Shown here piece by piece: positions 1 through 7,958 of a stretch of 34,703 nt of DNA (position 1 is its first letter; every line of letters begins with the position of its first letter). Location of the stretch: positions 1 through 34,703 of the forward strand of contig JAUQWQ010000047.1 in assembly GCA_030835085.1 (NCBI GenBank), written 5' to 3'. The notes beneath the pieces are model-generated. The model ran no database searches, had not been told where the DNA came from, and saw nothing but the letters and a program-made list of their open reading frames with translations. The stretch comes from Ignavibacteria bacterium (GTDB lineage Bacteria; Bacteroidota; Ignavibacteria; Tepidaquicellales; OLB5). The position numbers and the translations under genes were made by a program.

Positions 1-242
1 CCGAGTTTTTTCGGCATTAGTCTGAAAAAGCTAATATTTTCAATTAGTGATGGAATAGCTTTTCTTACTTAATTGCTTATAGTTACTACAAATTATCTAA
101 TTTTTTGGAAATTAGCAAGATTAATGTAACGGTAATAAGGTAACTGCACGGATTTAATAAAATGGTTTTACATTGATTTATCAAACAGGATTTATTATGT
201 TTTATCGATTTCATGTTTTACAATCCTGAAAAAGTAACAACT
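1..242. other. AT-rich leading intergenic stretch
   Basis: I see no gene here. A short hairpin-like string (ccgagttttttcgg) at the very left edge could be the end of a terminator for a gene outside the window. The remainder is AT-rich and probably holds the promoter for the P-domain gene cluster that begins at 243, but no clear -33/-7 pair is visible. Confidence 0.4.
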
Positions 243-1034
243 ATGAAAACCAAAAAATACATCTTTGCTTTATTTCTTCTAATAAATTCTATAAATATAA
301 TTGCTCAACCGCAACAAACTTTTTGCAGGAACGGAGTAAATATACCCGTCATAGATAATGGCACTGTACGTGATTCAATTTTAGTTAATGTTGTATTAAA
401 TAACGTCTTGGATGTAAACGTCAGAATTGACACCCTTCTGCACACCTGGGTTAGTGATCTTAAAATTGAACTTAGAAAGAACAATACTTCTGTCAGACTA
501 TTTAATAATACAGGAGGTTCTGGTGATAATTTTATAGGGACTGTGTTAAATGATTCTGCTACGCTTATTATTGACAGCGTCGCACCACCATTTACAGGTT
601 CATTCAGACCTAATCAGCTGTTGAATGCATTTAACAGTAATTCTGCCAATGGGTATTGGGTATTATCAATTACTGATAACGCTACGGGTGATACCGGACT
701 TCTGAAGACCTGGTGTTTGGTTATAACAATTGGATTTATAGATGGCATAAATGAATCATTTGAAATTCCCAATACATTCAGACTCTACCAAAACTATCCA
801 AATCCGTTCAATCCCGTTACCAAAATAAAATACGGACTGCCGAAAAATGGATACGTTAAGCTATCAGTATACGATGAACTTGGAAAAGAGGTCGCTGTTC
901 TTGTGGATGGATACAGGCAGGCAAATACTTATGAAGCTGAATTTAATGCAACAAATCTGCCAAGTGGTGCGTATTATTATAAGCTGGAAGCTGAAGGATT
1001 TAGTGATACTAAAAAAATGGTTATAATTAAATAA
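243..1034 (+). CDS. Secreted P-domain protein with T9SS sorting domain (copy 1)
   Basis: This gene encodes 263 residues. I chose the ATG at 243 because it gives a clean signal peptide (MKTKKYIFALFLLI..., cleavage near AQP); an upstream ATG at 213 adds ten non-signal residues. Residues about 25-165 resemble the P/Homo B domain that usually follows the catalytic domain of proprotein convertases and subtilisin-like proteases: HTWVSDLKIEL, GGSGDNF, then a NGYWVLSITD...GDTG...W ending. The last 80 or so residues are a T9SS type A sorting domain (LYQNYPNPFNPVTKIKY ... MVIIK). No protease domain is present, so the P domain stands alone. The product is probably exported across the outer membrane and anchored or released at the cell surface. 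It is the first of three tandem paralogues with 8-nt gaps, presumably one operon. Its function is unknown; a binding or adhesion role is a guess. Confidence 0.85.
   Translation: MKTKKYIFALFLLINSINIIAQPQQTFCRNGVNIPVIDNGTVRDSILVNVVLNNVLDVNVRIDTLLHTWVSDLKIELRKNNTSVRLFNNTGGSGDNFIGTVLNDSATLIIDSVAPPFTGSFRPNQLLNAFNSNSANGYWVLSITDNATGDTGLLKTWCLVITIGFIDGINESFEIPNTFRLYQNYPNPFNPVTKIKYGLPKNGYVKLSVYDELGKEVAVLVDGYRQANTYEAEFNATNLPSGAYYYKLEAEGFSDTKKMVIIK
786..1034 (+). repeat. Sorting-domain repeat, copy 1 of 3
   Basis: This 249-bp segment encodes the T9SS sorting domain and ends at the stop codon. It aligns without indels to 1589-1837 and 2407-2655. The first 51 bases and a 35-base block before the stop are identical in all three copies, whereas the upstream P-domain DNA is clearly diverged. 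Confidence 0.9.
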
Positions 1035-1042
1035 ATGGAATT

Positions 1043-1837
1043 ATGAAATTACAACTAATTCTAATCTTGGTTGCATCTTTATTTCCAATCTATAAACTGG
1101 AATCTCAGTTTCTGCAGCAAACCAACTGCAGGAATGGTCTAAATATCAGCATACAGCAGAACGCAACTACCAAAGATTCCGTTCTTGTTAATACCGGAGC
1201 ATGTGTTGTGTATGATCTAAATGTTATTTTAGATACGATACTTCATACATGGGATAGTGACCTGATTGTGTATATACAGAAAGGAAATACCGGAGTGCAG
1301 CTACTAAACAGAATTGGAGGCTCAGGCGACAACTTCATTAACACAAAGCTTGATGATTCGGCCTCAATCTTAATTTCTGAAGGAACTGCCCCTTTTAGCG
1401 GCAACTACAGACCAATAAACTCCCTTCATTCGTTTTACGGAATTAACCCAAACGGTTATTGGAGACTTCTGGTTAGTGATACTGCAAGCGGAGATACAGG
1501 AATAATAAAAGCCTGGTGTGTACAATTAACTATAAGTTGTGTTACAGGCGGGTTACAATCTTTACAGATCCCTAACACATTCAGGCTTTACCAAAACTAT
1601 CCAAATCCGTTCAATCCCGTTACCAAAATAAAATACGGAATGCCGAAAAATGGAAATGTTAAGCTAACGGTTTACGATGAGCTTGGCAAAGAGGTAGATG
1701 TACTTGTTGACAATTACAAGGAGGCAAATACTTATGAAGCTGAATTTAATGCTACTAATCTGCCAAGTGGTGTGTACTATTATAAACTTGAAGCTGATGG
1801 ATTTAGTGATACTAAAAAAATGGTTATAATTAAATAA
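1043..1837 (+). CDS. Secreted P-domain protein with T9SS sorting domain (copy 2)
   Basis: This 264-residue protein has the same architecture as its upstream neighbour. There is a signal peptide (MKLQLILILVASLFPIY...), a stand-alone P/Homo B domain (HTWDSDLIVYIQKG, GGSGDNFINT, NGYWRLLVSDT...GDTG...W) and a C-terminal T9SS type A sorting domain (LYQNYPNPFNPVTKIKY ... MVIIK). The ATG lies 8 nt after the preceding stop, so translation is probably coupled within one transcript. The P domain shares the fold-defining positions with copy 1 but is diverged in sequence. It carries cysteines near residues 53 and 167 that could form a disulfide, a pattern also seen in copy 3. No catalytic domain is present. 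Confidence 0.85.
   Translation: MKLQLILILVASLFPIYKLESQFLQQTNCRNGLNISIQQNATTKDSVLVNTGACVVYDLNVILDTILHTWDSDLIVYIQKGNTGVQLLNRIGGSGDNFINTKLDDSASILISEGTAPFSGNYRPINSLHSFYGINPNGYWRLLVSDTASGDTGIIKAWCVQLTISCVTGGLQSLQIPNTFRLYQNYPNPFNPVTKIKYGMPKNGNVKLTVYDELGKEVDVLVDNYKEANTYEAEFNATNLPSGVYYYKLEADGFSDTKKMVIIK
1589..1837 (+). repeat. Sorting-domain repeat, copy 2 of 3
   Basis: Second copy of the 249-bp sorting-domain segment, colinear with 786-1034 and 2407-2655. It shares the 51-base and 35-base identical blocks with the other two copies. Confidence 0.9.
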
Positions 1838-1845
1838 ATTAGATT

Positions 1846-2655
1846 ATGAAAAAGAAAATCTTACTGTTAATAATATATATGCTATTTGTTTCACTTATGA
1901 CAGAAGTTGTTTTACCGCAAAGCGCACAGCAAAGTTTCTGCAGAAGCGGATTGAATATACTGGTGTTGGATCATTCAACAGCCACTGATTCTATATTTGT
2001 ATTTCTAGGCAATGGGTGTATTGTAAATGACGTTAATGCAGTTCTGACAAATATTAATCACACATGGCTTTCTGATTTAAGGGTATATTTACGAAAAGGG
2101 AATACCGGTTCATTGATAGTCAATTTTGTGGGCGGTTCAGGTGATAATTTCATAAATACTGTACTTGATGATTCTGCATTGATCCCGCTTTCATCCGGCA
2201 CAGCCCCATTTACAGGCACATACAAACCCTCAAGCCCTCTTGCACCTTTCAATGGCATTAGTACTGATGGATACTGGAAAATGGCTGTAACAGATACAGG
2301 TAATTCCGGGGATACTGGTTCACTTCACGCCTGGTGCGTAAGATTAACATACACCTGTCCAACTGGCGGAATACAAACAGTAGAGATACCCAACTCATAT
2401 ATGCTTTACCAAAACTATCCAAATCCGTTCAATCCCGTTACCAAAATAAAATACGGAATGCCGAAAAATGGATATGTTAAGCTAACAGTATACGATGAGC
2501 TTGGCAAAGAAGTTGCTGTGCTGGTGGATGGATACAGGCAGGCAAATACGTATGTGGAAATATTCAATGCTACGAATCTGCCAAGCGGTGTGTATTATTA
2601 TAAATTGGAAACTGATGGATTTAGTGATACTAAAAAAATGGTTATAATTAAGTAG
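1846..2655 (+). CDS. Secreted P-domain protein with T9SS sorting domain (copy 3)
   Basis: This is the third member of the triplet, 269 residues. It has a signal peptide (MKKKILLLIIYMLFVSL..., cleavage near LPQSAQQ), a stand-alone P/Homo B domain (HTWLSDLRVYLRKG, GGSGDNFINT, DGYWKMAVTDTG...GDTG...W) and a T9SS type A sorting domain (LYQNYPNPFNPVTKIKY ... MVIIK). The start is again 8 nt after the preceding stop. It is closer to copy 2 than to copy 1 in the P domain (shared cysteines and the APF(S/T)G(N/T)Y(R/K)P stretch). A palindrome follows the stop and probably ends the transcript. Substrate or partner cannot be read from the sequence. Confidence 0.85.
   Translation: MKKKILLLIIYMLFVSLMTEVVLPQSAQQSFCRSGLNILVLDHSTATDSIFVFLGNGCIVNDVNAVLTNINHTWLSDLRVYLRKGNTGSLIVNFVGGSGDNFINTVLDDSALIPLSSGTAPFTGTYKPSSPLAPFNGISTDGYWKMAVTDTGNSGDTGSLHAWCVRLTYTCPTGGIQTVEIPNSYMLYQNYPNPFNPVTKIKYGMPKNGYVKLTVYDELGKEVAVLVDGYRQANTYVEIFNATNLPSGVYYYKLETDGFSDTKKMVIIK
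2407..2655 (+). repeat. Sorting-domain repeat, copy 3 of 3
   Basis: Third copy of the 249-bp sorting-domain segment, colinear with 786-1034 and 1589-1837. It differs from the others at scattered positions, including TAG instead of TAA as stop. Confidence 0.9.
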
Positions 2656-2710: not shown

Positions 2711-3496
2711 CTATTTTTCTATAGCACGCTGTTTGAATTCATACAGCGCGATTCCCGCCGAAATTGCTACATTGAGTGATTCGCTTGCTGAGTATCCTTC
2801 AATTTTCACTTTCCCAAATCCCATATCCATAATTTCTTTTGAAATACCGTGGGCTTCGCTTCCAAACACGATCACAGATTTATCAGATTTCGCTGATTGA
2901 GTGATCTGCGATAATGAGCTTTCTGCATCAAGTGTAAACAGGTAAACTGAATACCCTTTTGATTCAAGTTTCTTCAGCTCAACTGCAAGATCAGCATCTT
3001 CGGTAATATTGGTATGGAAAATCCCGCCCTGGGTTGAGCGAACTACTTTGGGATTATACGGGTCAGCCGAGTCTTCGCTCAGCAGAATCTGGTCAACACC
3101 AAACCAATAAGCAGTACGGATTATTGTACCTAAGTTGCCGGGGTCGCTGACCTTATCAAGCGCAATTATCAGGTCACCTAGTGAGTTTGTTTTACTAATC
3201 TCAGGGCGGTTCACAACTCCCACAATTCCCTGTGAGGATTCAGTATCAACAAGTTTGTTAAATAATTTTTCCGGTAAAGGTTCGACAATTGTTTTATTCT
3301 GCGCAATTTTTTCGAGTATGGCTGTATGACCCTGCAGGTCAACATCATTTCGCAGAATGATGTACTCCAGCTCATGCGGCGAGCTGAGACACTCCTCTAT
3401 TAAATGAAAGCCTTCAATTAAATATTTGCCGTGCTCAAGCCTGAATTTTTTCTGTTTGAGCGAAGCGAATTGTTTTATTTCGTTGGTGGTTAACAA
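2711..3496 (-). CDS. SpoU/TrmH-family RNA 2'-O-ribose methyltransferase
   Basis: This 261-residue enzyme belongs to the SpoU (SPOUT) family that transfers a methyl group from S-adenosylmethionine to ribose 2'-OH in tRNA or 23S rRNA. Residues about 5-95 match the SpoU substrate-binding domain (LKQKKFR, YLIEGFHLIEE, SSQGIVGVV). Three knot motifs follow: SDPGNLGTIIRTA (117-129), FGSEAHGIS (211-219) and SESLNVAISAGIALYE (238-253). The start is a TTG: it gives the typical N-terminus MLTTNEIKQFASLKQKKFR, an in-frame TGA lies upstream, and there is no ATG. The substrate cannot be decided here; RlmB-like 23S rRNA methylation is most likely. The gene lies downstream of folE on the same strand, but palindromes in the 150-bp gap make cotranscription doubtful. 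Confidence 0.93.
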   Translation of the reverse strand: MLTTNEIKQFASLKQKKFRLEHGKYLIEGFHLIEECLSSPHELEYIILRNDVDLQGHTAILEKIAQNKTIVEPLPEKLFNKLVDTESSQGIVGVVNRPEISKTNSLGDLIIALDKVSDPGNLGTIIRTAYWFGVDQILLSEDSADPYNPKVVRSTQGGIFHTNITEDADLAVELKKLESKGYSVYLFTLDAESSLSQITQSAKSDKSVIVFGSEAHGISKEIMDMGFGKVKIEGYSASESLNVAISAGIALYEFKQRAIEK

Positions 3497-6453: not shown

Positions 6454-6582
6454 AGAATTATTCATACCGGTCTGCAAATTTAATGAAAAGTTTACTATGA
6501 AACGCTTACTTAAATTATTCCGTTCACTGCACTACATAGCAAGAACAAATTGTATTTTAGAACTTTGCTGTTTTATACCCTC

Positions 6583-6790
6583 ACCCCCTGCCCCTCTCCC
6601 AGAGGGAGAGGGGAGCATATTACTCTTTACTTGTTTCTCCCAACGAAGTTCTTTTTCGAAAATCCCCCTGCCCCTCTCCCGTAGGGAGAGGGGAGCATAT
6701 TACCCTTTACTTGTTTCTCTCAACGAAGTTCTTTTTCGAAAACTCCCCTGCCCCCATCCCGCTCAACAGGAGTTCCTTCGTGAAAGGGTG
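6583..6790. repeat. 80-bp tandem repeats with GC-rich hairpins
   Basis: Two nearly identical units (6583-6662 and 6663-6742) and a diverged third that begins at 6743 repeat with an exact 80-bp period. Each of the first two contains CCCCTCTCCC (6591-6600, 6671-6680) and its inverted partner GGGAGAGGGG (6604-6613, 6684-6693) with a 3-nt loop. Each then has a shared AT-rich tail including caacgaagttctttttcgaa. The GC content contrasts sharply with the AT-rich surroundings. A 137-codon reading frame across it (6497-6910) looks like translated repeat, so I do not call it a gene. Confidence 0.9.
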
Positions 6791-6899
6791 AGGGGAAATT
6801 CCCGGAGTTTAATGACCTTTCTAATAATAACTTATACTTCAATATATCAATTTCAGATATCATATATACTTTTTATATTGGATAAAATAATTCAGCATA

Positions 6900-7958
6900 T
6901 TGAAAAATAAACTATTCATCTATGCCCTCCTGCTCTTTAGTGCAATAAGTTTTGATTGCCGCCAAAAAACAGATGAGCTGACCGATACCCATAACAACAA
7001 ACGGCTGAGGGATGTAGTGGTAAGCTATATGTCTGAGCCACTGTTCAGAAATAAAGATTTTGTGCAGCAGGTAACGGGCACAGAAGCTGACCTGAAGCTC
7101 TACGATATGGATGAAAAAACCCTGTACTTCAGCATTAACAAAAAGGATTATGACAGCAGTACTACGCTGAATAAGCTTACTATTGACAGGAACGCTGTTG
7201 AATTCGGCTTTGAACAAAACGGCGATGTATTCCTGGGAGCATACACTCTCAAAGGTACAGGCAGAATGCTATTCAGATTCCCGAAGAATGATTTTAAGTC
7301 TGATAGTACAAGAAGTATAACTGTAAAACTCAGCAATGGAATTGAATATACCCAATCATTAAATGAGCTGGCGGATTTTGCCGATGATGTTACAATATAT
7401 GGCGGCAAGAATGACCCCGAAGTGAAAAAGAACAAATACCTGGCAAATCACGGTGCATTTGTATCAGTGCCGGGCGAAAAAAGTCTGACCCGCCTTGTTA
7501 AATTGATAGTAAAAGATGGTTCTTCAAAAGAAGAAACTGCACAGAGTTTACTTAATTTTGTAACTTCAGCAATCTCTTTCAGCCAGAAGGAAGCTTATGG
7601 CGGATATGAAGTATTGAAACGCCCCAATGAAGTGCTTATGACGGGTGTATCTGACTGCAGCGGGTTGACAATTCTTTATGCCTCATTATTAGAGCAGGCT
7701 GGAATTGATTACCTGCTGGTTTATTCACCCGGCCATATTTCGGTTGCAGTTGAAGGTAAATTCAGCAATACCAACGGACTGGCAATTACATTCAGCGGCA
7801 AAAAATATTCAATTGCCGAAACTACAATCAATGGTTTTATGATTGGCAATACTGTGCTTCAGCAGAAAGATATCACCAACGAAATTTCTTTTCTGCAGAG
7901 ACCGGCAAAGGATTCAAAATTTATTGACTATAAATCAGGCAAGGAAATCGGCAATTAA
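6900..7958 (+). CDS. Exported transglutaminase-like (papain-fold) protein
   Basis: This 352-residue protein starts with TTG; an in-frame TAA lies just upstream and the TTG gives a good signal sequence, MKNKLFIYALLLFSAISFDC. Cys20 could be lipidated, although the box SFDC is not canonical, so lipoprotein status is uncertain. Residues 25-180 are a beta-rich region without recognised motif. Residues about 205-310 match the transglutaminase-like core: Cys253 in GVSDCSGLTILYASLLEQAGI, His279 in SPGHISVAV, and a probable third member, Glu307 in YSIAETT. Such domains act as peptidases or amide-forming enzymes on proteins or peptides; the substrate is unknown. The gene follows a repeat-rich spacer with no clear promoter and ends 19 bp before a convergent gene. 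Confidence 0.85.
   Translation: MKNKLFIYALLLFSAISFDCRQKTDELTDTHNNKRLRDVVVSYMSEPLFRNKDFVQQVTGTEADLKLYDMDEKTLYFSINKKDYDSSTTLNKLTIDRNAVEFGFEQNGDVFLGAYTLKGTGRMLFRFPKNDFKSDSTRSITVKLSNGIEYTQSLNELADFADDVTIYGGKNDPEVKKNKYLANHGAFVSVPGEKSLTRLVKLIVKDGSSKEETAQSLLNFVTSAISFSQKEAYGGYEVLKRPNEVLMTGVSDCSGLTILYASLLEQAGIDYLLVYSPGHISVAVEGKFSNTNGLAITFSGKKYSIAETTINGFMIGNTVLQQKDITNEISFLQRPAKDSKFIDYKSGKEIGN

Follow-up and report, generated by a model that had tools for sequence, protein, structure and literature searches.

Three adjacent genes near one end of the window, by which we mean the whole stretch of DNA analysed (contig C174, 34,703 nt, from a 4.05-Mb draft genome in 234 contigs), are best read as an old tandem array of T9SS P-domain proteins whose tails have been gene-converted while their P domains have not, an explanation to which we assign a probability of roughly 0.8. 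Judged from the aligned sequences, the P domains can be shown to have separated before the species did and to have stayed under purifying selection, and the tails to have been exchanged since then, with the exchange ending near the tail start.

The array starts 242 nt inside the contig end. Its three genes lie on the forward strand at 243..1034, 1043..1837 and 1846..2655, separated by 8-nt spacers (ATGGAATT between genes 1 and 2, ATTAGATT between genes 2 and 3), and each encodes a signal peptide, a P domain and a type A T9SS tail in a protein of 263–269 aa. The open reading frame of gene 1 has an alternative start at 213; the start at 243 gives a signal peptide that matches those of the homologues. 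Profile matches agree with the original prediction of three tandem genes of this build with no protease. PF01483 (P_proprotein) scores 31.5, 23.2 and 26.2 bits for genes 1, 2 and 3 (Pfam cut-off 21), PF18962 (Por_Secre_tail) is above the Pfam cut-off in all three, and the TIGR04183 C-terminal domain scores 42–46 bits against a cut-off of 23, while the family profile search of the three proteins found no protease family above cut-off. They therefore lack the S8 subtilase upstream of the P domain by which a kexin/furin-like proprotein convertase is recognised.

A sequence search of solved structures returned nothing significant for the array protein. A fold search with the two-domain model was misled by the tail, and the P domain was therefore folded on its own (pLDDT 83). 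This model matches the P domain of Kex2 with a Z score of 12.5 (rmsd 2.3 over 120 residues) and that of furin with a Z score of 12.4, the next unrelated fold reaching only 8.7, and the array P domain is thus predicted to have the furin/Kex2-type jelly-roll P fold. Two cysteines are invariant in 13 of 13 P-domain homologues, and a second pair is either wholly present (8/13) or wholly absent (5/13). Because one pair is invariant and the other is kept or lost jointly, the pattern suggests two disulphides in the domain.

Diverged P domains had been predicted to stand beside near-identical tails, and the DNA alignment bears this out. In pairwise comparison within the array the P-domain part is 54–60% identical at the nucleotide level (pS 0.72–0.86) and its synonymous sites are saturated. 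The tails (786..1034, 1589..1837 and 2407..2655 on the forward strand; 249 nt each, stop included) are 88–90% identical (pS 0.28–0.33), that of gene 2 standing at this level with both others. Equal divergence of tail and body, which had been named as grounds for rejecting the idea, is absent, and the bootstrap intervals for the two parts do not overlap. The predicted 51-nt identical block and 35-nt terminal block are both present in the tails, the former extending to 66 nt between genes 2 and 3.

Comparison with relatives reverses the order of similarity between the two parts. For the gene 1 P domain the orthologue is the third gene of the G005 array (L092 8340–9131; 85% nucleotide identity, dS 0.68), and for the gene 3 P domain it is a gene of G012 (L091 8237–9040; 87%, dS 0.60), with L092 7475–8284 of G005 next nearest; no clear orthologue of the gene 2 P domain was found in the relatives compared. 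Genes 1 and 3 each have a P-domain orthologue of their own in a sister species, which makes the paralogues older than the species split, and with dN/dS of about 0.07–0.09 both P domains are, on coding-sequence evidence, under strong purifying selection. The tails show the opposite pattern, with dS of 0.35–0.44 between array paralogues and of 0.94 (gene 1 and G005c) and 0.79 (gene 3 and G012a) between orthologues.

This reversal is matched by a conflict between trees. AU tests gave p = 0.0016 for the body topology on the tail data and p = 2e-6 for the tail topology on the body data, and a monophyletic P-domain group of genes 1–3 was rejected (p = 3e-42). The tail tree is poorly resolved, from a short alignment of 246 columns, and the orthologue pairs alone were not rejected on the tail data (p = 0.136 for gene 1 with G005c, p = 0.215 for gene 3 with G012a). 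A MaxChi-type test, run to look for the predicted recombination breakpoints near the tail start, placed them there in both gene 1 and gene 3 (p = 0.0002, the lowest value that 5000 shuffles allow): about 20 nt or less from the tail start in gene 1 and 13–19 nt upstream of it in gene 3. One third-position run put a breakpoint some 50 nt upstream, and gene 2, which has no clear orthologue, gave no significant result (p = 0.55). The array tails thus show what is expected of concerted evolution, namely a segment closer within the genome than to its orthologues and a tree in conflict with that of the flank. The reversal in dS, the AU conflict and the breakpoints together make gene conversion, which had been proposed for the tails, the best reading of these sequences.

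The array occupies the same place in relatives from the genus, with three genes in G012, four in G005 and one each in G001, G003 and G009, and in all five it lies between a PD40-OmpA gene and TrmH/FolE. To its left, the divergent neighbour (1..17, reverse strand, first codons MPKKL) is cut by the contig edge and is identified by synteny as encoding a PD40 propeller with OmpA. In the relatives the PD40 and OmpA parts of this neighbour were found, CRD was below cut-off and TPR was unmatched by Pfam, a partial likeness to PorE (PG1058), which combines TPR, a PD40 propeller, CRD and OmpA (PMC5053529). The divergent intergenic region (18..242) is strongly conserved in the sampled relatives over window positions 18–200. 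It contains two CTAAT/ATTAG inverted repeats and a non-coding core at about 88–135 that is nearly invariant in those relatives, and of which a 33-nt stretch has a single occurrence in this genome when up to 3 mismatches are allowed. Rfam gave no match at E ≤ 1 for window positions 1–400, and a promoter and terminator scan found nothing above chance level. To the right the conserved neighbour is a TrmH-type RNA methyltransferase gene (2711..3496, reverse strand), beyond which lie FolE and QueD homologues (all named by inspection). Further into the window, an open reading frame at 6497–6910 translates to repeated PSPPAPLPEGEGS/PLSRRERG-type sequence and is likely an interspersed repeat, not a gene.

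The expectation that a P domain usually sits behind a protease proved only partly right. Elsewhere in the genome P domains stand directly before the tail, and the module ahead of them is in some genes an S8, C25 or M28 protease and in others BNR, SBBP or laminin-G (or, in a relative, Kelch). In the other Bacteroidota genomes sampled, P-domain matches occurred only in frames of at least 700 residues, with one exception, a 213-residue frame broken by a stop. The data therefore support the predicted P-domain-only T9SS family without a protease, conserved in position within the genus and unseen in other sampled Bacteroidota. A second stand-alone P-domain and tail gene, single-copy and beside a DUF4292 protein, is kept in two species (L075 4257–5910 and L094 8517–10188), and tandem arrays of P-domain and tail genes of about 525 residues are found in relatives and in this genome (L098, L099, L100 and L073).

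Tail similarity follows gene neighbourhood well beyond the array. We compared 174 tail genes from stretches on 50 contigs of this genome, regions taken partly for their density or clusters of tails. All 14 tail pairs at least 80% identical lie within 20 kb of each other, as do 46 of the 60 that are at least 70% identical. For 60 of the 174 genes the most similar tail belongs to a neighbour less than 5 kb away (expected 2.1; maximum 9 in 2000 shuffles), and 25 such cases against 2.2 expected remain when only passengers unrelated by BLAST are counted. This unrelated-passenger effect is carried by a minority of pairs (Mann–Whitney p = 0.0096 below 500 bp and 1.5e-5 below 5 kb). In G009, a relative assembled in two contigs, the nearest tail is a neighbour's in 33 of 122 genes (2.3 expected), or 14 with unrelated passengers only (again 2.3 expected), and seven of the eight tail pairs that reach 80% identity are linked; the eighth, which has homologous bodies, is not. 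As a pattern, then, genes with near-identical tails are neighbours throughout the part of this genome that was sampled, and almost always in the relative, including neighbours with unrelated passengers.

The clearest cases are adjacent genes with unrelated bodies at C51 16344–17777/17929–19110 (tails 90.7% identical) and C146 12359–13792/13899–15824 (89.4%), where the near-identical stretch begins close to the tail start and ends close to the stop codon. In the second C146 gene the tail is 65–72% similar to those of five orthologues and 89% similar to that of its unrelated neighbour. These two pairs, and a region of G009 (C1, 650–661 kb), combine neighbouring position, unrelated passengers and near-identical tails in the manner of the KLIKK proteases, whereas the passengers of the P-domain trio are homologous. 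In the G009 cluster (G009:C1:650241–661163, L187) the T9SS genes carry tails up to 87% identical. Window genes 12519, 14704 and 15534 were considered as a further case and rejected: their last residues are common, but unrelated pairs reach only 59% over 249 nt. At G000:C66:94000–110000 (L076) about eight short T9SS-tail genes stand in tandem, with partly homologous passengers and mutually similar tails.

Could the array tails have stayed alike without recombination? Strong purifying selection on protein or nucleotide sequence, with the P domains left to drift, has in its favour that the tail holds the sorting signal and that its protein sequence is retained between species, and selective conservation of the tail DNA had been suggested originally. 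Yet in the tails of the two clear orthologue pairs roughly every second synonymous site differs between species (pS 0.49–0.54), well above the within-array values given earlier. Synonymous identity within the array thus exceeds that of orthologues, which contradicts a selection-only account, and because the trees conflict and the breakpoints of genes 1 and 3 fall at the tail start we prefer gene conversion and consider selection very improbable. Even less credit can be given to a recent tandem duplication after which the P domains diversified rapidly. The tandem layout and the one to four copies at the locus in relatives would fit such a history, but it is contradicted by the sister-species orthologues of genes 1 and 3, with their low dN/dS, and by the saturated synonymous sites of the paralogues. 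The same observations tell against variable display through rapid divergence, since the divergence of the P domains is old. We likewise attach very little weight to collapsed or chimeric tails in a draft metagenome assembly, despite the number of contigs and the proximity of the contig end: the tails differ mutually at 10–12% of sites, arrays are also present in G012 and G005, and the linkage pattern recurs in the two contigs of G009.

The P-domain proteins might instead be C-terminal partners split off from a protease or from other large T9SS cargo, given that in other genes of the same genome a P domain joins the tail to an S8, C25 or M28 protease domain. We judge this unlikely, as none of the five relatives that preserve this gene order has a protease adjoining the array, whose neighbours are PD40-OmpA and TrmH, and the S8 gene in the window is 15 kb away. 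The possibility raised at the outset of an adjacent protease beyond the window falls with the identification of the edge gene by synteny. A more serious competitor concerns the neighbours with unrelated passengers, which could reflect one-off capture, in which a neighbour's tail was duplicated into a new secreted gene, and not repeated conversion. Module fusion of this kind has been proposed for the KLIKK proteases (PMC4404884), and the closest linked tail pairs are on the same strand, an arrangement that leaves unequal crossing-over or tail duplication unseparated from conversion. Against capture, the orthologues of C146_13899 in five relatives already bear their own different tails, so that an existing tail there was overwritten or donated to the neighbour, and the P-domain array itself requires exchange between existing genes. 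For these pairs we think capture the less probable course.

Under the conversion of tails favoured here, the YQNYPNPFNP motif and the C-terminal block would keep identical runs of 51–66 nt, enough for homologous recombination, and P domains at about 55% identity would be too diverged to recombine, which would limit copying to the tails. Sec export, T9SS transport and removal of the tail would leave a small P domain at the cell surface or close to it. There the jelly-roll domain, probably disulphide-bonded, may bind or stabilise a surface ligand or another secreted protein, and we infer a putative function for the array proteins as small surface-displayed binding or stabilising modules. The odds seem about even that, across this Ignavibacteria-like genus, the T9SS tail is a locally common recombining segment, with unrelated neighbouring cargo genes overwriting each other's tails.

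The closest precedent is found in Tannerella forsythia, whose KLIKK proteases are encoded by clustered T9SS genes that differ in passenger but end in a virtually identical C-terminal sorting domain; the origin of that common tail was left in need of explanation (PMC4404884). The likeness lies in clustered T9SS genes carrying one near-identical tail. There, however, the passengers are several protease families in one pathogen, whereas here the lineage is environmental, the passengers are P domains and beta-propellers, the pattern extends across the sampled genome, and orthologues reveal exchange between existing genes. The gingipain/HagA genes of Porphyromonas gingivalis, encoding T9SS surface proteins, have undergone recombination and domain rearrangement around a conserved C-terminal domain (PMC5266723). 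In that species exchange involves catalytic and adhesin domains as well as alleles from different strains, whereas in our case the passengers remain in place and the tail alone is swapped between genes of a single genome. With the proprotein convertases (furin, Kex2, Aeromonas sobria ASP) the array proteins have in common the jelly-roll fold and PF01483, but they are without a subtilase domain and the P domain is the sole passenger. Their tails match the T9SS type A sorting domain (TIGR04183/PF18962) with no structural difference, the local conversion being the new part. As in intragenomic gene conversion and concerted evolution generally, paralogues are closer than orthologues in one segment with a sharp boundary; unlike the usual case, the process is restricted to a secretion tag, and is suggested also between genes whose remainders are unrelated. 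Our literature search found no paper that presents gene conversion or concerted evolution as a general feature of T9SS tails, the single concerted-evolution match being PMC7323717, as far as the text available to us goes. Common tails on clustered T9SS genes and recombination among P. gingivalis T9SS surface proteins were thus already known; new here are the neighbourhood pattern and the evidence, drawn from orthologues, that conversion is confined to the tail.

T9SS bacteria of this kind have well over a hundred cargo proteins with one common tail type, and tail copying may explain how one export tag is re-used for so many. The history of the tail can be separated from that of the passenger inside single genes, with tail similarity tracking gene neighbourhood, and trees built from whole T9SS proteins should be treated with caution as they blend the two histories. 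The P-domain-only proteins offer a minimal system in which to study the role of the P domain without a protease. If the genus-wide proposal is true, tails evolve by chromosomal neighbourhood and passengers by descent, which would provide T9SS bacteria with a general route to recruit and keep export-competent passengers and would account for the common tails of systems like the KLIKK proteases.
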